Assembly (NCBI RefSeq): GCF_017357525.1
Contig: NZ_CP036172.1
Span: 966,561-1,030,560, forward strand
Direction: 5' to 3'
Origin: Methanofollis aquaemaris
GTDB taxonomy: Archaea > Halobacteriota > Methanomicrobia > Methanomicrobiales > Methanofollaceae
DNA: 64,000 bases
Shown here: positions 5,186 to 58,059 of the stretch, in pieces
How the letters are laid out: every line of letters begins with the position of its first letter
How positions within the stretch are numbered: position 1 is the first letter of the stretch
Program-made: the position numbers and the translations under genes
The notes under the pieces: generated by a model
The model's input: only the letters and a program-made list of their open reading frames with translations
Told to the model about the DNA's origin: nothing
The model's database searches: none

Positions 5186-5779
5186 CTACAACCACCGTCG
5201 CAGAACCTCCACCGCATCATGCTCCATGTCCTGGACCCATGTATCAGGGATGTTGTGCTCAGTATGCAGGATGCCGACCAGACTGGAACCCTTGTGCTGG
5301 ATGCCGAAGAGCATCACCGTCGGGTCATCAGGGAGCCCACCTTCTGAGAAGATGTAACTGTATTTTGCGGCATCCGACGCGGCGTCTCCCTCAGAAGAGG
5401 CGACGACAAGACCATCGTCGGTCGAGATCGTGAAGGCATCGAGGTAATATTTCTCACAGAGTGCCTTCATACTCTCCAGAATATCGGCACGTCCCCCGAT
5501 GAGTTCAATCTTACGAGGAGGCTTCTCCCACTCGACCTCGCGGGAACGCTGGATATGTTTGAAGAGTTTAAACATATCCACCGGCCCCCGACCTGTGCCG
5601 CCAACCATCTCCCGGAGACGCCCGACCTGCTGGCTCTCCTGAGTATCCGTCCTCACCTCTTCGAGAAGGCCCCTGACCCGGACCATCTGGAGCACGCACC
5701 CTGCGATGCCGACCCCGATCAGGGTGAGGAGGACAACTATGATCTCCCCCAAAACAACAAGTGTCGTTCCGTCATCCAT
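5186..5779 (-). CDS. Membrane-anchored Roadblock/LC7-domain protein
   Basis: A 197-residue protein with an N-terminal membrane segment (about 7-31), a linker with coiled-coil character (32-60), and a C-terminal Roadblock/LC7-like domain (about 95-197; note LDAFTISTDDGLVVASS, the standard strand-turn-strand of the fold). Roadblock proteins regulate small GTPases and, in bacterial MglB, cell polarity. No small Ras-like GTPase is in this operon; the neighbouring NTPase is MinD, 51 bases downstream. It starts four bases after DUF2226. The Roadblock assignment is from pattern recognition and should be confirmed by profile search. Confidence 0.75.
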   Translation of the reverse strand: MDDGTTLVVLGEIIVVLLTLIGVGIAGCVLQMVRVRGLLEEVRTDTQESQQVGRLREMVGGTGRGPVDMFKLFKHIQRSREVEWEKPPRKIELIGGRADILESMKALCEKYYLDAFTISTDDGLVVASSEGDAASDAAKYSYIFSEGGLPDDPTVMLFGIQHKGSSLVGILHTEHNIPDTWVQDMEHDAVEVLRRWL

Positions 5780-5783
5780 ACTC

Positions 5784-6791
5784 TTACTTCACTCCTTTTT
5801 CCTTGTTTTCCCCGATGAGATGTCCGAGTTCCAGGCGGTCGAGTATCGAGACGTAACTGTCCTTCAGGTCGGCCGCCATCTGATCGGCATCGATTCCATC
5901 AAGGGCAGCCAGATCCCTGAATACCGGATCCTCATGAGGAACCTCTGCGGGCGCCCGGACATGACGCTCCCTTTCCAGATGTTTCCCTGCCCCGGATCCG
6001 CGGGTCAAATCCTTTCCAGCAGGAGACAAAGGTTCGGGCGCAGCACCAACCTCGCGCCTGCGCGTGGGAGGGACAGGGGGGGACGGGGGCTGCTCTTCGC
6101 CACCCTCCACCAGGCACCCCTGATTGAACTCCCTGGCGAGGGCGAGTTGCGGATCGGTCAGGGAGTATACGGCCACCTCTCCAGGGGCCGTCATCTCCCC
6201 GACTTTCACGAGCGCCGAGGCCCCGCGTTCACGCTCCCCCCCGGCGAGGATACATACTCCTCCCGAGAAGACGAGGGTAAAACTGTCAGAACCAAGGTTA
6301 AAAATGGCATATCCCGTGAAACCAGAATGTTTCAGACCATCAAGCATCTCCAGACCGGTCGCATTCCGTTTGATCTCGATGAGGCAACCTCTGGGCACCT
6401 GAAGAGAGGCGTTCTTCCCCTTCGCTGGCCCCGGCTCCGATTTCTGGCGATTACGAGGTTTCTCCTGGGAGGAGCACATATCAGAGCGTGGGACCGAGGC
6501 CTTCGCATTGAACTCAGCCGCCAGACGGATCTGCGGCCCGTTCAGGAGATACAAGGCCGCTTCTACCGGATCATCCGCCAGGCCTCTGACCGCATCCCAT
6601 GCACGAGCACCCTGAAGATCCTGGTACTCGGCAAGTATGCAGGTACCTTCAGAGAACACCAGCGAGATCGGGGCACCCTCATGGTTCACCATCACGTGGC
6701 CTGAGAAGGAAGTCTCCGCTATCTCAGCAAGTATGAAAGATAAAGAGATATCTCGCCTGATAGAAGAGAAGTTACCTCTCGGAATATCCAT
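5784..6791 (-). CDS. DUF2226-like protein with duplicated domain
   Basis: A 335-residue soluble protein with an internal duplication. Residues about 3-105 and 130-245 both begin PRG...I, then reach FxGY/HVxxxxxxxxxLVFSxGxCILA, and end in L.DPQ.rLA.EFN. This resembles the archaeal DUF2226 family, whose function is unknown. A proline-rich linker (about 248-270) leads to a C-terminal helical segment (about 290-330). It is the first gene of the MinD operon, with TATA-like AT-rich sequence at about 6815-6832. The repeated domain resembles effector-sensor modules found beside Roadblock genes, but no activity can be deduced. Confidence 0.7.
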   Translation of the reverse strand: MDIPRGNFSSIRRDISLSFILAEIAETSFSGHVMVNHEGAPISLVFSEGTCILAEYQDLQGARAWDAVRGLADDPVEAALYLLNGPQIRLAAEFNAKASVPRSDMCSSQEKPRNRQKSEPGPAKGKNASLQVPRGCLIEIKRNATGLEMLDGLKHSGFTGYAIFNLGSDSFTLVFSGGVCILAGGERERGASALVKVGEMTAPGEVAVYSLTDPQLALAREFNQGCLVEGGEEQPPSPPVPPTRRREVGAAPEPLSPAGKDLTRGSGAGKHLERERHVRAPAEVPHEDPVFRDLAALDGIDADQMAADLKDSYVSILDRLELGHLIGENKEKGVK

Positions 6792-49894: not shown

Positions 49895-52800
49895 ATGTAC
49901 CGATGTAAACAAGAACACCATACTCGCGCGGCCGCACTGGCCGTGGCCGTCACGCTCCTCTGCTGTGTGCTGGTCATGCCCGCTGCCGCCGAAGACACAG
50001 CCCTTGGGGCGGCAATCGACGCCCCAGACCTCGTATGGACGACCGACACCTCCACAAAGGCGTGGACGGTCGATACCGAACATGCCGTGAAAGGCGGAAG
50101 TTCTGCCAGGAGCGGGCCGGATTTAAGCTGGGGCGACTCGAAGATCGAGACCTCGGTCACCGGCCCAGGCACTCTCTCCTTCTCATGGAACGTCTCCTCC
50201 CCTTCGAGTGACTATTACATGTTCTCGATCGACAGTGCCGAGCAGAAGCAGATCTCCGGCACCGAGTCTGTCTGGACAGAGGAGTCTTTTGAGATCAGTG
50301 CCGGCGAGCACACCCTCACCTGGACCTATCACAAAGGGGGCATGGGCGTCCAAAACCAGAACGGCGGATGGCTCGACGCGGTCACCTTCGCAGCGGGAGA
50401 GTGTACCGACTTCTCCGCCAACGTCACCACCGGCATGGCACCCCTTGCCGTGCAGTTCACCGACCTCTCCACCGGCGACGTGAGCGGATGGGACTGGGAC
50501 TTCGGCGACGGTCCAGACCACGCCACCGTGAAGAGTCCGGTCCATGTCTACCAGGACGCCGGCACCTACGATGTCACCCTGACCGTCCAGAAAGGTGGGT
50601 CTCCTGACACGGTCAAGAAGACAGAGTTCATCGAGGTCGTACAGGCCCGGACTCTCGGCGACGCTGTGGGCGCATCCTCCCTTGCCTGGACCACGGGCGG
50701 CAAAGCCACCTGGGGCGTCGACATCACGGACGGCGTGACAGATGGAGACAGTGCCAGAAGCGGTTGCCTCTCCAGCTCTGGGTCCACCGGGATCAACACC
50801 ACAGTCAGCGGCGCCGGCACCCTCTCCTTCGACTGGAAGGCAAACATCCAGTATAACTCTATGTTCGGATCCCAGGGCAGCCTGGAATTCTCCATCGACG
50901 GTGCGACCTCATCTGACGGGAACAACTACAGGAAGATCACGGCGACTAAAGACTGGGCGCATGAGTCTTTCGACCTCGGCGAGGGCGAGCACACACTGCA
51001 GTGGACCTACGCGGCCAAGATGAGTGACAAACCCGAGAACGGCGGCTGGCTCGACAACGTCACCTTCACCCCGAAGGCGGTGCCAGAACCCACCACCCTC
51101 AAAGAGGCCCTCGACGCCCCGAACCTTGAGTGGACCACAGATGGAGCATTTGAATGGACGGTCGACACTGAGAACGGCGTGAAAGGCGGCGGCTGCGCAC
51201 GGAGCGGTCCGCTTGAATACAGTTACCAGGAATCAAACCTCCTCACCAGCGTCACCGGCCCCGGCACCTTCACTTTCTGGTGGAACGTCTCCTCCAGCAC
51301 TGAGGAATACTATTATTTCGCAATTGACGAAGACGAGAATGTCATTTCCAGTATCAATGGTACCAACCACACGTGGGAGGAGTGTACCGCTGAGATCGCA
51401 CCTGGCAAGCACACCCTCAAGTGGTGTTACTTCCGGTTCACTGATGAGCCAGAAGGCGAGGACTGCGGTTGGGTCGACAATGTCTCCTACACCCAGCATA
51501 TCGCCACCGCCTTCACTGCCAACACCACCGGCGGTGAAGCCCCGCTCACCGTGCAGTTCACCGACCAGAGCACCGGCGCGATCACCTTCAGACTCTGGGA
51601 CTTTGGCGACGGCACCACCTCCGACGAGCAGCACCCGGTCCACACCTTCGAGGCCGGCACCTACGACGTCTCCCTGACCGTCACCAGAGACGGCGTGGAG
51701 GAGACCGAGACAAAGACCGGGTATATCCATTCGGTCGGCGAGGTCACCCTTGCCGAGGCCCTGGACGCCCCTGACCTCGCGTGGACCACCGGCGGCAATG
51801 CCACCTGGTCGGTCGTGAAGGGCCCAGAGTATGTCGGTGCCTGCGCCGGCAAGAGCGCCGGGGCACTGACCTGTAGCCAGAACTCCTGGGTCCGGACCAC
51901 CGTCACCGGTCCCTGCACCCTCTCCTTTGACTGGAAAGTGAAGCCTGGCAAGGTATATGGGATGGCAATGGGCAGGATGGAGTTCGCAGTCGACGACGCC
52001 GACCAGTACGACGACCTCTACAAGAAGATCCAGCACGGCTCCGACTGGTACCATGAGACCTACCACATCGGCCACGGCATTCACACTGTCACCTGGACCT
52101 ATTCAACATCCACAACCGACGCCGAGGAGAATGGCGGTTGGCTCGACAACGTCACCTACACCTACGGCGGCGGCGAACCGGTCGCGGACTTCGTCACCAA
52201 CGTGACCGAGGACCGCGGCATGGCGCCCCTGGCCGTGCAGTTTGCCGACAACTCCACCGGCTTCCCGACCGCATGGTCCTGGGACTTCGGCGACGATTCG
52301 GCACCGGCCACCACGGAGCGGGCGACCCATGTCTATACCAACCCCGGCGAGTACCCGGTCACCCTGACGGTCACCAACATCGTCGGGAAGGACGCTGACG
52401 GCAAGGCCGTCCTCGGCACCGACAGCGTGACAAAGACGATGAAGGTCGTCAAGGCCATCTCGCTCGGCACTGCGGCCGACGCTCCCGACGAATTTGTCTG
52501 GACGACCGGCGGCGACGCCGAATGGTTCACTGACCTTTATTGTGCCCTGAAGGGCGGAAGTTCCGCGAGGAGCGGGGTCATCTCATCCAAGGAGAACACC
52601 TCCTGGATCGAGGCGACGGTCACTGGTCCGGGCGTGCTCACCTTCAACTGGAACATCAATTCCAGTGCCACCACCTACAGCGGGCTGCTGAAGTTCTCGG
52701 CCAACGGCGTCCCGGTCTCAGAGATCAAGGGAACCCATGACGGCAAAGACTGGCCTGGCGTATACTATGAAGTCCCGCCCGGCGAGCAGACCTTCAGGTG

Positions 52801-54829
52801 GACCTACTCCAACGAATACCGGTACAAAGAGAACGACTGCGGTCACCTCGACAATGTCACCTACACCTCGGGCGCCATCCTCCCGACGGCCGCCTTCGAG
52901 GCCAATGTGACGCGGGCGATGGCCCCGGCGACAGTGCAGTTCAACGACACCTCTGCAGGATGCCCTACCGCATGGTCCTGGGACTTCGGCGACGGCGCCA
53001 CCTCTGACAAGCGGCACCCGACCCACACCTTCGAGGAGGTCAGGGAGTACACTGTCACCCTGACGGTCACCAACGACGCCGGCACCAGCACCACGACGCA
53101 GACCATCACGCTCGTCCCCTTCGCCACCCTCGGCGAGGCCGTCGAGGCCCCTGACCTGGAGTGGTCCACCGGCGGCGACGCCCCATGGTTCGTCGACGTC
53201 GACTGCGTCCACATCGGCACCACCTCGGCGCGGAGCGGCGCCATCGGCAGCAGCCAGGAGTCCTGGCTCCAGGCAAACATCACCGGCCCAGGCTACCTCG
53301 CCTTTGCCTGGAACGTCTCCTCTGAACCCAGGCACGACTACCTGAGACTCTACATCGACGGGGAAGAGGAGAAGAACCTCTTCGGTTTCCCTGAGAACTG
53401 GACAGAAGAAGAGTACAGGCTCGGGTTCGGCACGCACGCCGTCAGGTGGGTGTACGAGAAAGATTCCACCTCCGATATGATGGAGGACTGCGGCTGGGTC
53501 GACAATGTCACCTTCACGCCCGTAGACGACACCGACTTTGTCGGCAACGTCACCTGGGGCGAAGTCCCGCTCACCGTTGACTTCACCGGGTACACGACCG
53601 GCACCGCGACCCGCTGGGCCTGGGACTTCGGCGACAAGGAGTCGACGGTCGGCAGGAACCAGACGCACACCTACACCACGCCCGGTGTCTACAATGTCAC
53701 CCTCATCGTGAAGAAGGACACCGCCCCTGAAGGCCAGATGGAGGTCAAGAACGGCTACATCACCGTCACCCCGACCTTCGAGGAGGCCCTCGACGCCGAA
53801 GGCCTCGTCTGGAAGACCGGTGGCGACGCCCCATGGTTCGTCCAGTTGAACGAGTCCTTCACCGGCGGGAGTTGCGGGCAGAGCGGCGCCATCGACGAGC
53901 GCCACCAGCAGTCATGGATCCAGACCACCGTCACCGGCCCCAAGAACCTCACTTTCGACTGGAAGGTCTCCTCCTATAAGGGCTACTCGATGAAGTCCTC
54001 AGACGCCCTCAACTTCTCCATCGACGGCGAAGTGCAGGACGAGATCGCCGGCACCGACGAAGGATGGCAGCGCACGACGTACACCCTGGCGAGGGGCGAG
54101 CACACCCTGCGGTGGGTGTATGAGAAGCGTTCATACAGCAGCACCACCGGGGAAAACTGCGGATGGCTCGACAACGTCACCCTCACCGATATCGCACCGG
54201 TGATCTCGTTTGCGCCGGCCCCGGCGATGGTCGCCGCCGGCACCGAGCGCGAGGTCGCCATCGTGGCGGATCACTTCCCTGAAGGCTTGAAGAACATCAG
54301 CCTCACAGTCAGCCTTGAGAATACGCACGCCGAGATCACCGGCGTGACCTCGGCCTCCATGGCGGACACCCTCTCGTACTCGGGTGTGCCAGGCACCACC
54401 GTCACTCTCTCCGCACGCGACGACGGCAACACCATCGAGGCAGGTGCCGAGGATGTCGTCCTCGCCACCCTGAAGGTCAAAGGTCTTACCGACGGCACAG
54501 CCGGGATCACGGTCAGCGACGCTGTGGTTTACACAGACAACAGCGAAGAGACTGTCGTAATCTGCAGGCCGGGCGCCATCGATGTCGTCGGCCTCTCGCC
54601 CCTCCCCGGATGCACGCACATCCCCGGCGACGGTGACGGCGACGGCCTCTTCGAGGACGTGAACGGCGACGGCACCCTGAACGCCGACGATGTCAGGGTC
54701 TACTTCGAGCACTTCGAGAGCATCTTCTCGCAGAAGAACCCGCGGGTCTTCGACTACAACAGCAACGGCCGGATCGACTTCGACGACGTCGTGACGGTCC
54801 ACCGCGCCATGGAGACCGACAGAACATGA
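49895..54829 (+). CDS. Giant modular PKD surface protein with cohesin-like and dockerin domains
   Basis: 1644 residues with a signal peptide (to about 31). Seven copies of a ~135-residue jelly-roll-like module (start about 33) share ARSG, TVTGPGTLSFxW and CGWLDNVTFT motifs. Five are followed by a PKD domain with the WDFGDG signature; modules 2 and 7 are not. After module 7 come a cohesin-like domain (about 1434-1565; GTEREVAIVADHFPEGLK) and a type I dockerin (about 1573-1640) with two calcium loops, DGDGLFEDVNGDGT and DYNSNGRIDFDD. Dockerins bind cohesins, so the protein can be both docked and dock others. It lacks a C-terminal membrane helix. It probably forms part of the cell surface. The protease gene follows after 17 bases. 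Confidence 0.88.
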   Translation: MYRCKQEHHTRAAALAVAVTLLCCVLVMPAAAEDTALGAAIDAPDLVWTTDTSTKAWTVDTEHAVKGGSSARSGPDLSWGDSKIETSVTGPGTLSFSWNVSSPSSDYYMFSIDSAEQKQISGTESVWTEESFEISAGEHTLTWTYHKGGMGVQNQNGGWLDAVTFAAGECTDFSANVTTGMAPLAVQFTDLSTGDVSGWDWDFGDGPDHATVKSPVHVYQDAGTYDVTLTVQKGGSPDTVKKTEFIEVVQARTLGDAVGASSLAWTTGGKATWGVDITDGVTDGDSARSGCLSSSGSTGINTTVSGAGTLSFDWKANIQYNSMFGSQGSLEFSIDGATSSDGNNYRKITATKDWAHESFDLGEGEHTLQWTYAAKMSDKPENGGWLDNVTFTPKAVPEPTTLKEALDAPNLEWTTDGAFEWTVDTENGVKGGGCARSGPLEYSYQESNLLTSVTGPGTFTFWWNVSSSTEEYYYFAIDEDENVISSINGTNHTWEECTAEIAPGKHTLKWCYFRFTDEPEGEDCGWVDNVSYTQHIATAFTANTTGGEAPLTVQFTDQSTGAITFRLWDFGDGTTSDEQHPVHTFEAGTYDVSLTVTRDGVEETETKTGYIHSVGEVTLAEALDAPDLAWTTGGNATWSVVKGPEYVGACAGKSAGALTCSQNSWVRTTVTGPCTLSFDWKVKPGKVYGMAMGRMEFAVDDADQYDDLYKKIQHGSDWYHETYHIGHGIHTVTWTYSTSTTDAEENGGWLDNVTYTYGGGEPVADFVTNVTEDRGMAPLAVQFADNSTGFPTAWSWDFGDDSAPATTERATHVYTNPGEYPVTLTVTNIVGKDADGKAVLGTDSVTKTMKVVKAISLGTAADAPDEFVWTTGGDAEWFTDLYCALKGGSSARSGVISSKENTSWIEATVTGPGVLTFNWNINSSATTYSGLLKFSANGVPVSEIKGTHDGKDWPGVYYEVPPGEQTFRWTYSNEYRYKENDCGHLDNVTYTSGAILPTAAFEANVTRAMAPATVQFNDTSAGCPTAWSWDFGDGATSDKRHPTHTFEEVREYTVTLTVTNDAGTSTTTQTITLVPFATLGEAVEAPDLEWSTGGDAPWFVDVDCVHIGTTSARSGAIGSSQESWLQANITGPGYLAFAWNVSSEPRHDYLRLYIDGEEEKNLFGFPENWTEEEYRLGFGTHAVRWVYEKDSTSDMMEDCGWVDNVTFTPVDDTDFVGNVTWGEVPLTVDFTGYTTGTATRWAWDFGDKESTVGRNQTHTYTTPGVYNVTLIVKKDTAPEGQMEVKNGYITVTPTFEEALDAEGLVWKTGGDAPWFVQLNESFTGGSCGQSGAIDERHQQSWIQTTVTGPKNLTFDWKVSSYKGYSMKSSDALNFSIDGEVQDEIAGTDEGWQRTTYTLARGEHTLRWVYEKRSYSSTTGENCGWLDNVTLTDIAPVISFAPAPAMVAAGTEREVAIVADHFPEGLKNISLTVSLENTHAEITGVTSASMADTLSYSGVPGTTVTLSARDDGNTIEAGAEDVVLATLKVKGLTDGTAGITVSDAVVYTDNSEETVVICRPGAIDVVGLSPLPGCTHIPGDGDGDGLFEDVNGDGTLNADDVRVYFEHFESIFSQKNPRVFDYNSNGRIDFDDVVTVHRAMETDRT
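49980..54190 (+). repeat. Seven tandem ~400-base coding modules
   Basis: The modules begin near 49995, 50640, 51090, 51735, 52455, 53115 and 53770. Each encodes one jelly-roll-like unit with conserved TTGG/TTD near the start and LDNVT near the end. Nucleotide similarity between copies is moderate, so the expansion is not recent. Confidence 0.75.
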
Positions 54830-54846
54830 GACAGGTGGCTTGAGAA

Positions 54847-57800
54847 ATGAATTCCAACATACTGAAAGGTCTGGCAGGCGCGCTCCTCTGCGTCTGTCTC
54901 CTTCTCTGGGTCGCGGCCCCGGCAGCCTCCGCACTGGAGGTGACCGAGGCACCGCTCAACCCTGAGTTTGTGAAATATCTTGAGGAGAAAGAGGCCCCGG
55001 CCGACCGCATGATGACGGCCGCCGCCGCCCCTATCGAAGAAGGCGAACACACCGACAAGATCTGCGGCGAGATCCCCTCGCCGGTGACCGTCGCCTGGCC
55101 CGAGGGCAGCGAGGTGCAGACCACCTCGGCCTTCAGGCCCGCACCCTCGGAGAGCCGTTGTGACCTCCGCGACGAAGGGCGGGTCGGGTCGGTGAAGGAC
55201 CAGGGAGAGTGCGGGAGTTGCTGGTCGTTTGCGGCCCTCGGTTCCCTGGAGTCCACGCTCCTCCCCGAAGAGGTCCGGGACTTCTCCGAGAACAACCTGA
55301 AAAACACCCATGGCCTGGACTATGCCCACGACAAAGGCGGGAACGCCTACATGGCCACCGCCTACTTCTCCCGCTGGTCTGGCCCGGTGAACGAGTCCGA
55401 CGATCCCTACAGCGAGGTCTCGGGCGTCTCCCCCACAGGGCTCACCGTGCAGAAGCACGTCCAGGACGTGGACTTCCTCCCGGTGCGGAAAGACCGCTCC
55501 AACGTCACCCTGATCAAGCAAGCGGTCAAGGAGTACGGCGGGGTCTACTCCTCGATGTACTGGTCGAACGGGTTCTACGACGAGGGGCATGCCAGTTACT
55601 ATGACCCCTGGCTCGTCGGCGGCGGCCATGCCGTCCTGATCGTCGGCTGGGACGACACCTACAGCAAAGACAACTTCACCTTCACCCCGCCTGGCGACGG
55701 TGCGTTCATCGTGAGGAACTCCTGGAACGCCGACTGGGGCGACGACGGCTACTTCTACCAGTCATACTACGACGCCGACCGCGGCTGCAAGGCGATCTTC
55801 ACAGCAGAAGATACCAACAACTACCGCGACGTCTATTTCCACGACCCCCTGGGTTGGACCTCGGCGATCGGGATTGGGAGCGAGACGGCGTACGCCGCCA
55901 ACGTCTTCACCGCCACCTCTGGCAACAGCCTGGGCGCGGTCGGGTTCTTCACCCCGGCCCCGAACGCCGCCTACGAGGTCTCGGTCTATCTCGACCCGAC
56001 CGACAGCCCTCTCTCCGCAGACGGTCCGGCGACGACCATCTCAGGCACCCAGGTGTTGCCTGGCTACCACACGCACCCGCTCACGACGCCGGTGCCTCTG
56101 AAACCCGGCCAGACGTTCTCGGTGGTCGTGAAACTCACGACGCCGAACTATTACCAGCCTCTTGCAGTCGAGAAACCGATCGCAGGCTTCTCCTCCGGCG
56201 CAAAGGCGTCGGCAGGCGAGAGTTATGTCAGCGCCGACGGCGTCGAGTGGGAAGACCTCACCACCACCATGCCCAACACCAATGTCTGCCTGAAGGCCTA
56301 CACGGTCTACGAGGAGCCGAAACTTTCGTTCAATACCGCCCATTCATCTCTGAACGCAGGTGACGAGACCGAGGTCGCCATCACGATGAGCCGCGCTCCC
56401 TGGGGGCTTGCCGGCTACGAGATCGACGTCTCGGTCGCCGACCCTGAGGTCGCCACCATCACCGGCGCCTCCTACCCCGCCTGGGCGACGCTCAACCTCT
56501 CGCGCGAGACCGACGGCGGTCTCATGATGCGGGCGGTCGACCTTGAGGACGCCGTCCATGCAGGCGACGAGGACGTCGTGCTCGGCACGGTCAGGGTGAA
56601 AGGCCTCATCGGCGGGTCTTCAGACCTGAAGATCGCCGTGCGGCAGATCGACGGCGACGGCGGCGATCTGGTCACCACCACGGCAAACACGAGCAGCGTC
56701 GCGATCACGCCGGCCGGAGAAAATGAACAGGCCGAGAAAGTCAGACTGGACCTGCCGGGATGCAACTTCTCAGGTGCGAATGTCTCGGTGACGGCCTCGG
56801 CAGACGCCCGGGTTTCTGAGGACAGAAAGAGCATCATCATCTCCGGGGATTCCTTCGACCTGACCATCAGGACCATCGGAAGGGTGACCGAGGAGGGCGG
56901 CACCATCAAAGGCACCGTCGAGAACTTCGTCATCCAGACCAGGGCACTCACGGTCCGATCCGAGGATGCCGGCGAAGTCCGCGGCTCGGCCATGGCAGAC
57001 CTCTCCAGCGTGCCTGAGGGTGCCGCCGTCACCACGGCCCTGAGAACCGAAGCAAGGGCCGGGACGATGGAGATCTTCGAGCGTGCGGCCGCAGAAAACG
57101 GACTGACAATCGACGCCCTCGCCGCGTCCCTTGAGATCCGGACCACCAATCTCAACGACGGCGAGGAGATCACCGGCGCCACCGTGCTGATGAGCGTCCC
57201 GACCGCCTGGGTGGAGGCGCACGGCGGTGCAGAAAACATCACGATCATCCGCAGTGGCGACGACGGGACGGCAACAATCCTCCGGACCCACGTTCAGGGG
57301 ACCGAAGACGGCATGACCACCTTTGCCGCCACGTCACCTGACGGATTCTGTGAGTTCGGGCTCGTTGCCGTCTCGGCGGCACCGATCGAACCGACACCGG
57401 TACCGACCACTGAACCTGTCCATGTCTCCTCGCCCAGCAGCGGCGGCAACAGTCAGTCGGACACCGCAGTCGGTACGACGGGCGCCCTCCATGCAGGGGA
57501 GAACATCACCCTGAAGATGCGCAACACCCCGATCACGGCGGTAACGCTGAGGGCGAACGAAGACATTGACAGCCTCATGCTCTCGGTGAAGAAGACTTCA
57601 CGCCCGTCGGCAGCCGATGCCCCTGAGGGCGCGGTCTATGCTTACGTTGAGGCGACCCTGTACCACACCACCGAAGACCACCTCTCCAGCGAGACCATCA
57701 CCTTCGCCGTGCCCACGGCATGGATGGAGGCGCATTCCTGCACTGCCAGCGACATCGGCCTCTTCAAGCATGTCGACGGCGCATGGAAGCCTCTCAAGAC

Positions 57801-58059
57801 GGTGGTCACCGGTGAAAACAGCGGCATGGCACACTTTGATGCGGAGAGCGACGGCTTCTCCACCTTCGCCATCGCCGCAACCGCGGGGACGCCTGAGACC
57901 CTGACACCGACCGTGACCTCGACCAGCGCCGAATCAGGTGTGGTGACCCCGGCAGAGACCGGAGCGGTCCCGGCGGCGACGACACAGAAGTCGCCTCTGC
58001 CCCTCTGGGCCGCGGCCCTCGCGATCGGCGCCGCCGTCCTCCTGGCAAGGAAACACTAA
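54847..58059 (+). CDS. Surface papain-like (C1A) cysteine protease with cohesin-like and PGF-pre-PGF-like domains
   Basis: 1070 residues: signal peptide (to about 29), propeptide-like segment, then a C1A catalytic domain with oxyanion Gln119, nucleophile Cys125 (GECGSCWSF), His261 (GGGHAVLIVGWDD) and Asn291 (RNSWNADWG), all intact. Next a lectin-like domain (about 325-490), a cohesin-like domain (about 495-625; GDETEVAITMSRAPWGLAGYE), one beta domain (about 640-840), a PGF-pre-PGF-like domain (about 885-1015), a Thr/Pro-rich linker and a final membrane helix before KH. It therefore sits on the cell surface. It may capture the dockerin of the protein encoded just upstream. A chagasin-type inhibitor is encoded at 21.8 kb. 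Confidence 0.9.
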   Translation: MNSNILKGLAGALLCVCLLLWVAAPAASALEVTEAPLNPEFVKYLEEKEAPADRMMTAAAAPIEEGEHTDKICGEIPSPVTVAWPEGSEVQTTSAFRPAPSESRCDLRDEGRVGSVKDQGECGSCWSFAALGSLESTLLPEEVRDFSENNLKNTHGLDYAHDKGGNAYMATAYFSRWSGPVNESDDPYSEVSGVSPTGLTVQKHVQDVDFLPVRKDRSNVTLIKQAVKEYGGVYSSMYWSNGFYDEGHASYYDPWLVGGGHAVLIVGWDDTYSKDNFTFTPPGDGAFIVRNSWNADWGDDGYFYQSYYDADRGCKAIFTAEDTNNYRDVYFHDPLGWTSAIGIGSETAYAANVFTATSGNSLGAVGFFTPAPNAAYEVSVYLDPTDSPLSADGPATTISGTQVLPGYHTHPLTTPVPLKPGQTFSVVVKLTTPNYYQPLAVEKPIAGFSSGAKASAGESYVSADGVEWEDLTTTMPNTNVCLKAYTVYEEPKLSFNTAHSSLNAGDETEVAITMSRAPWGLAGYEIDVSVADPEVATITGASYPAWATLNLSRETDGGLMMRAVDLEDAVHAGDEDVVLGTVRVKGLIGGSSDLKIAVRQIDGDGGDLVTTTANTSSVAITPAGENEQAEKVRLDLPGCNFSGANVSVTASADARVSEDRKSIIISGDSFDLTIRTIGRVTEEGGTIKGTVENFVIQTRALTVRSEDAGEVRGSAMADLSSVPEGAAVTTALRTEARAGTMEIFERAAAENGLTIDALAASLEIRTTNLNDGEEITGATVLMSVPTAWVEAHGGAENITIIRSGDDGTATILRTHVQGTEDGMTTFAATSPDGFCEFGLVAVSAAPIEPTPVPTTEPVHVSSPSSGGNSQSDTAVGTTGALHAGENITLKMRNTPITAVTLRANEDIDSLMLSVKKTSRPSAADAPEGAVYAYVEATLYHTTEDHLSSETITFAVPTAWMEAHSCTASDIGLFKHVDGAWKPLKTVVTGENSGMAHFDAESDGFSTFAIAATAGTPETLTPTVTSTSAESGVVTPAETGAVPAATTQKSPLPLWAAALAIGAAVLLARKH

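Follow-up and report, generated by a model that had tools for sequence, protein, structure and literature searches.

The window analysed here is a 64,000-nucleotide stretch of the complete, 2.75-Mb genome of Methanofollis aquaemaris (contig NZ_CP036172.1, positions 966,561 to 1,030,560), and it contains two adjacent genes, P0001 and P0002, whose products probably make up a two-part cohesin-dockerin cassette for surface attachment, with P0001 docked on P0002 at the cell surface. P0001 (1644 aa; its position is that given in a preliminary description of this DNA) is a repeat protein with PKD domains that ends in a cohesin followed directly by a dockerin (Coh-Doc); P0002 (1070 aa) starts 17 bp downstream and joins a papain-like protease domain to a lectin-like domain, a cohesin and a hydrophobic C-terminus. 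Both proteins would be secreted; P0002 would be kept on the membrane by its C-terminal anchor, and the anchorless P0001 would be held through its C-terminal dockerin, binding the P0002 cohesin in a calcium-dependent way. In this way the long PKD-repeat protein would be brought next to the protease and its lectin-like domain on the cell surface, where the pair might act in proteolysis or adhesion. The cohesin within P0001 (the cis cohesin) would pack with the dockerin as one rigid unit, like an X module, or would give a further docking site.

Cohesins and dockerin of the P0001-P0002 pair

The cohesin-like domains of both proteins were assessed by profile searches and, for P0001, by structure prediction. 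The Pfam cohesin model (PF00963) matched neither P0001 nor P0002 at E values up to 10, and in a search of the whole genome it found two other loci and not these genes. Against PDB sequences, a profile of 35 members of the domain family returned no cohesin at E up to 10, and two Archaeoglobaceae members of the family found no cohesin there, 2xdh included. The AlphaFold2 model of P0001 residues 1425–1644 (45 relatives aligned) had a predicted local distance difference test score (pLDDT) of 92.8 and a predicted template-modelling score (pTM) of 0.84. The best Foldseek match of this model was 2xdh, the non-cellulosomal cohesin of Archaeoglobus fulgidus (E 3.8e-10, TMt 0.75); nearly all of the best 50 rows were cohesins, and VIA-align gave Z up to 16.3 over 130 residues. 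A structure search with an anchored haloarchaeal relative of the domain likewise returned cohesins. The predicted fold of the P0001 domain is clearly the cohesin jelly roll; the preliminary description had staked its reading on the domain not being predicted as some other fold.

The two domains belong to one family, for a profile built without sequences of the host genome scored the P0002 domain at 118.6 bits (E 1.7e-35) and the P0001 domain at 75.6 bits (E 3.6e-22), both far above chance level, and by homology to this profile the P0002 domain is a predicted cohesin. Because PF00963 does not match, the domain is a cohesin by fold yet lies outside the Pfam family as modelled. We are dealing with a large, unannotated archaeal cohesin family that appears to be the partner of one dockerin subtype; because current models miss it, Pfam-based counts of archaeal cohesins are likely to be underestimates.

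Residues 1587–1639 of P0001 matched Pfam Dockerin_1 (PF00404) with 23.9 bits, just over the cut-off of 22.9, and gave the top match to that model in the whole genome (E 1.5e-6). Two 12-residue F-hand calcium loops lie near the C-terminus, each followed by a helix in the predicted model; positions 10–11 read Ala-Asp in the first loop and Phe-Asp in the second. The loops could be parsed in 216 of 218 distinct dockerins, with Phe or Tyr at position 10 of 175 first and 201 second loops, and Asp or Asn at position 11 of 125 and 151, respectively. Because both loops carry the same code, the sequences hint at a dual binding mode of the dockerin.

The domains first noted in P0001, a cohesin-like module and a two-loop dockerin, have thus held up, and so has the description of its neighbour as a protease with an intact C1A set, a cohesin-like domain and an anchor: Cys, His and Asn are all present in the C1 domain of P0002, from which it is a predicted member of papain family C1A. 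The term "scaffold" once applied to P0001 finds no support, the protein having one cohesin.

Gene pairing, anchors and cargo across archaea

We examined the distribution of the dockerin subtype and the cohesin family in an order-level survey of 150 genomes, taking the best 150 matches of each search and 140 of the 163 surrounding regions (23 of the 24 regions from one genome, G116, are absent from the survey set), and in 79 loci from named genomes of methanogens, haloarchaea, anaerobic methanotrophic archaea (ANME), Archaeoglobaceae and a few others. The two sets overlap (L032 and L168 are one record) and so are not independent. Among the matches listed, the dockerin subtype was present in 45 of the 150 genomes and the cohesin in 52; 43 genomes had both, 2 the dockerin only, 9 the cohesin only and 96 neither (Fisher p 4e-26 before any correction for relatedness; all p-values are inflated by the inclusion of related genomes). 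The subtype was found in 91 of 392 genomes of the phylum, and such frequencies do not bear out the supposed rarity of archaeal pairs. Within the family around G267, taken as Archaeoglobaceae, 11 of 55 genomes were positive; one single-contig genome of the genus of G267, whose identity as A. fulgidus is a guess, gave no match to the subtype. A search of phage records with the dockerin gave no match, and the plasmid search returned 12 archaeal records. Two records titled as metagenome-assembled genomes of Candidatus Fraserbacteria (L197) and of an uncultured bacterium (L232) hold Coh-Doc-Coh-Doc proteins of the family.

Dockerins and membrane anchors excluded one another. A C-terminal membrane segment was found in 0/130 dockerin open reading frames (ORFs) vs 35/96 cohesin-only ORFs in the survey regions, and in 0/96 vs 17/30 in the named loci; no more than 10 residues separated the dockerin from the C-terminus in 127 of 130 and 95 of 96 ORFs, respectively. 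Dockerin proteins lack a C-terminal membrane segment and carry the dockerin where one would stand; the dockerin therefore behaves as a replacement for the membrane anchor. The anchor call is a crude hydropathy cut, by which three P0002 orthologues scoring 1.5 were counted as anchor-free. The anchor and pairing counts cover ORFs of at least 150 aa that end within their contig, and the survey adjacency count leaves out G068, G116 and G134.

Gene order separated the two kinds of dockerin protein. A cohesin-only gene lay directly downstream of 35/50 Coh-Doc ORFs in the survey and 27/51 in the named loci, as compared with 10/41 and 4/45 for ORFs with a dockerin only; a cohesin-only gene directly upstream of a dockerin ORF of either kind was seen in 10/91 and 0/96. 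The Coh-Doc dyad thus tends to bring its own receptor gene, and dockerin-only cargo is more scattered. The P0001-P0002 pair itself is adjacent in 8 of the 12 genomes of the genus, its own included, and also in G007.

The cargo borne by the dyad is interchangeable: a PKD protein in P0001, an S8 protease elsewhere in the same genome and a PhoX phosphatase in haloarchaea (3 of the 3 scanned), where in many loci a short gene for a cohesin with a membrane anchor comes next. A Salarchaeum plasmid copy of this haloarchaeal pair is annotated as "alkaline phosphatase PhoX" and "hypothetical protein". Across 56 dockerin proteins, all but one from outside the host genome, Pfam found PKD domains in 21 and S8 in 5; among 32 dockerin proteins of G068 it found NHL propellers (10), PKD (8), CBM6 (7), C1 peptidases (4) and GDSL lipases (3). 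Both tallies are of survey proteins with complete ends, with close orthologues and G134 partly dropped. In G453, a 5.8-Mb Methanosarcina-like genome, there were 30 cohesin matches, many within giant ORFs of 1000–4000 residues in which a dockerin follows the cohesin.

The polarity of the pair can also be swapped. In Methanofollis the dockerin is on the PKD protein and the cohesin and anchor are on the protease, whereas in Methanosarcina the arrangement is the reverse: on a plasmid of Methanosarcina vacuolata the C1/Lectin_like protease is itself dockerin-terminated and lies beside PKD-Doc and Coh-PKD genes, and in G266 Coh-PKD(16)-PGF-CTERM comes 13 nt after a C1-Lectin-Doc gene. The protease and PKD proteins stay neighbours while plug and socket change places, as expected if docking joins them. 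In the material examined, the swapped cluster was found in only 2 genomes (G266 and G401) of the 80 searched in that family, and these may share one origin; other C1-Lectin proteins (4 ORFs) carry their own anchor.

Profile searches of the host genome, of the kind that the preliminary description had proposed, returned 7 cohesins and 3 dockerins of the subtype. A second cluster at 2383–2389 kb (L011) is likewise organised: an S8 protease ending in Coh-Doc is followed by an overlapping 240-aa gene for a cohesin with a membrane anchor, and the third gene is Coh-PKD...PKD-Coh-Doc. The features of the pair in the window are collected in Table 1.

Table 1. Features of P0001 and P0002 (positions are those of the window)
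Feature	Position	Strand	Basis
P0001, putatively secreted PKD/repeat protein that ends in a Coh-Doc dyad and has no membrane anchor there	49895..54829	+	ORF, Pfam, hydropathy
Putative signal peptide of P0001 (residues 1-32)	49895..49990	+	by eye from translation
P0001 repeat region: PKD domains in 5 stretches, alternating with a ~110-residue repeat	49991..54184	+	Pfam
P0001 cohesin domain (residues 1437-1564), cis cohesin immediately preceding the dockerin	54203..54586	+	profile, predicted fold
P0001 dockerin (residues 1569-1636), 8 residues short of the C-terminus	54599..54802	+	Pfam, profile
Dockerin calcium loop 1 (P0001 residues 1588-1599, DVNGDGTLNADD)	54656..54691	+	read from sequence; loop pattern table
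Dockerin calcium loop 2 (P0001 residues 1620-1631, DYNSNGRIDFDD)	54752..54787	+	read from sequence; loop pattern table
P0002, C1A/Lectin_like protease that carries a cohesin and a membrane anchor	54847..58059	+	ORF, Pfam, hydropathy
P0002 Peptidase_C1 domain (residues 104-305; Cys125, His261, Asn291)	55156..55761	+	Pfam, 95 bits; motif search
P0002 Lectin_like domain PF18560 (residues 329-486)	55831..56304	+	Pfam, 165 bits
P0002 cohesin domain (residues 493-619), putative receptor of the P0001 dockerin	56323..56703	+	profile
P0002 PGF_pre_PGF domain, best stretch (residues 889-1010)	57511..57876	+	91.5 bits
P0002 C-terminal hydrophobic anchor and basic tail (residues 1049-1070)	57991..58056	+	17-residue Kyte-Doolittle mean 2.2

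The repeat region of P0001 (49991–54184) holds about seven copies of the ~110-residue repeat (DAPDL.WTT...SARSG...GW.DNVTF), which corresponds to no Pfam family. Several further observations concern relatives of the pair in the host genome. At 5206–7384 of L011 (genome 2383.2–2385.4 kb) the Coh-PKD...PKD-Coh-Doc gene is frameshifted within near-identical PKD repeats; it is a single ORF in the relatives G015 and G027, and the split may represent a real pseudogene, phase variation or a sequencing error. At 5843–8920 of L027 (genome 2737.8–2740.9 kb) a PKD-Coh-PKD protein stops abruptly, with a transposase-like ORF beside it on the opposite strand. A second dockerin/cohesin set, recognised by Pfam, lies at 1850–1866 kb and 2343–2358 kb (L009 and L010); one group comprises an S8-Coh-Doc protein, an A2M/TED-like protein with a partial dockerin match at its end, and a 253-aa protein whose C-terminus is hydrophobic. 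In the other, the gene for a 334-aa dockerin protein precedes that of a 604-aa protein, which Pfam matches to cohesin and which has a membrane anchor.

Which cohesin the dockerin may bind

The proposal that the P0001 dockerin binds the P0002 cohesin had been made in the preliminary description; it gains from the recurrent pairing, the exclusion of dockerin and anchor, and the Methanosarcina swap, and it does not gain from the docking-type prediction. For the latter, the dockerin gene and the neighbouring anchored-cohesin gene of a haloarchaeal pair (L184) lay in one frame and, with the stop read through, were folded as one chain; the domains were confident and the pTM was 0.56. The alignment was imperfect in that about 24 residues of each of 8 cohesin-only rows landed on the dockerin. 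By our estimate this pTM is near the value for two independently moving domains, and the model does not support a fixed dockerin-cohesin arrangement.

Other observations also weigh against docking of P0001 on P0002. Four of the 12 genomes of the genus gave no such pair. Only 45 of the 91 survey dockerin ORFs (G068, G116 and G134 excluded) adjoin a cohesin gene, and 21 of those 45 cohesin neighbours passed the membrane-anchor cut. The C1-Lectin-Doc protein of G076 has no cohesin neighbour, and loop 1 of P0001, with its Ala, departs from the Phe or Tyr seen at this position in 175 of 216 dockerins. Lastly, a sign that cis cohesins are the degenerate member of the pair (20 vs 1 of 27 pairs) proved circular, the columns having been picked on the anchored class.

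The cis cohesin of P0001 has lost several family positions (Gly-Tyr, Pro-x-Trp) that the P0002 cohesin keeps. As a general rule, the idea that the dockerin goes to the neighbour because the cis cohesin is degenerate was rejected, since independently chosen columns gave 12 vs 8, with 7 ties.

The dockerin could instead engage the cohesin of P0001 itself, in another copy or in the same chain, forming head-to-tail chains or a closed dyad, with the neighbour as one possible end point. Cohesin and dockerin do share one chain, their joint model is confident (pTM 0.84), and Coh-Doc dyads are widespread, with 48 from the named loci and some 20 giant Coh-Doc proteins in a single genome. The predicted rigidity of the dyad may represent an X-dockerin-like unit, or else it could be docking in cis. 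We consider self-docking unlikely, for a separate cohesin gene adjoins Coh-Doc genes far more than it does Doc-only genes, docking in A. fulgidus occurs across two genes, and the family positions lost from the P0001 cis cohesin, though this is not a general trend, are kept in P0002.

It is also improbable that cargo is shared rather than assigned gene by gene, with the dockerin binding mainly another cohesin of the cell, such as the 240-aa Coh-anchor protein of L011 or the PKD-Coh protein at 2739 kb. The genome's 7 cohesins and 3 same-subtype dockerins, together with the loop positions 10–11 common across the family, would permit such a pool, and one-to-many docking must occur in G068, because at least 39 dockerins there face only 5 or 6 cohesin matches; the adjacency of Coh-Doc genes to their own cohesin genes, however, is conserved, and a free pool would have no need of it. 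We give very little weight to the reading of the "dockerin" as a mere calcium-binding, folding or stability cap, with adjacency from shared regulation and no physical docking: the dockerin profile does rank EF-hand calcium-binding proteins in PDB above the dockerin-bearing chains 5lxv_B and 2y3n_B, and the L184 docking prediction was weak, but the genome coupling of dockerin and cohesin (43/2/9/96) is strong, dockerin and anchor are mutually exclusive, the polarity swaps, and the A. fulgidus precedent was measured.

Known systems and the wider reading

Docking of P0001 on P0002 is best compared with A. fulgidus, where the dockerin of ORF2375 is described as a strong and specific binder of the ORF2376 cohesin (PMC9705933). 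As in our pair, the two genes are consecutive, with the dockerin in one and the cohesin in the next, the system is non-cellulosomal, and 2xdh is the best fold match of the P0001 cohesin. Unlike it, the present cohesins have no detectable sequence relation to any PDB cohesin chain, and it is the P0001-P0002 pair that brings protease and PKD cargo and a membrane anchor. ANME archaea also have non-cellulosomal cohesin and dockerin proteins, for which attachment of proteins to the cell surface was suggested (PMC9012536, PMC5244752, both consulted as extracts); their domains were found with existing models, and the extracts describe no Coh-Doc/Coh-anchor pair, no cohesin family missed by the models and no exclusion of anchors.

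The pair has in common with bacterial cellulosomes (CipA-type scaffoldin, type I/II) the cohesin jelly roll, a duplicated calcium-loop dockerin at enzyme C-termini, and anchoring by cohesin-bearing proteins. It differs in that P0001 and P0002 hold one cohesin each, with no multi-cohesin scaffoldin in the pair, and in its cargo, which by Pfam is not a glycoside hydrolase in the window and consists of PKD repeats and proteases here, and PhoX, beta-propellers and lipases in relatives. Classical dockerins have Ser/Thr at loop positions 10–11, whereas the present subtype has Phe/Tyr and Asp/Asn. In X-module/dockerin dyads (CipA, CttA) a beta-sandwich module stands directly before a C-terminal dockerin; the P0001 module and dockerin are similarly predicted to pack as a unit, but in P0001 that module is a cohesin.

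A literature search found no mention of dockerin together with Methanosphaerula, and a loose search for dockerin with several methanogen genera gave no dockerin paper among the matches listed. Within the literature searched, the unannotated cohesin family, the anchor exclusion, the two-gene cassette with its variable cargo, and the protease/PKD pair with reversed polarity seem to be new.

More tentatively, and with less assurance than for the pair itself, we suggest a general, hitherto unrecognised archaeal surface-display system, in which the model-missed cohesin family and the dockerin subtype with the Phe/Tyr-Asp/Asn code in both loops would serve as a transferable alternative to C-terminal anchors. 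Coh-anchor proteins would take up papain- and subtilisin-type proteases, PhoX, GDSL lipases, beta-propellers and PKD adhesins as plug-in cargo; in some methanogens dozens of cargoes would share a single receptor or a few, cellulosome-like without a cellulosome, and Coh-Doc dyads may chain head to tail. The mesophilic and halophilic cohesin-dockerin pairs are offered as tools. What archaeal cohesins and dockerins do outside cellulosomes has been described as unknown or unclear (PMC5244752, PMC9012536), and the comparative pattern offers a concrete answer on their role: the dockerin would replace the membrane anchor, and the cohesin would be the anchored receptor one gene away.

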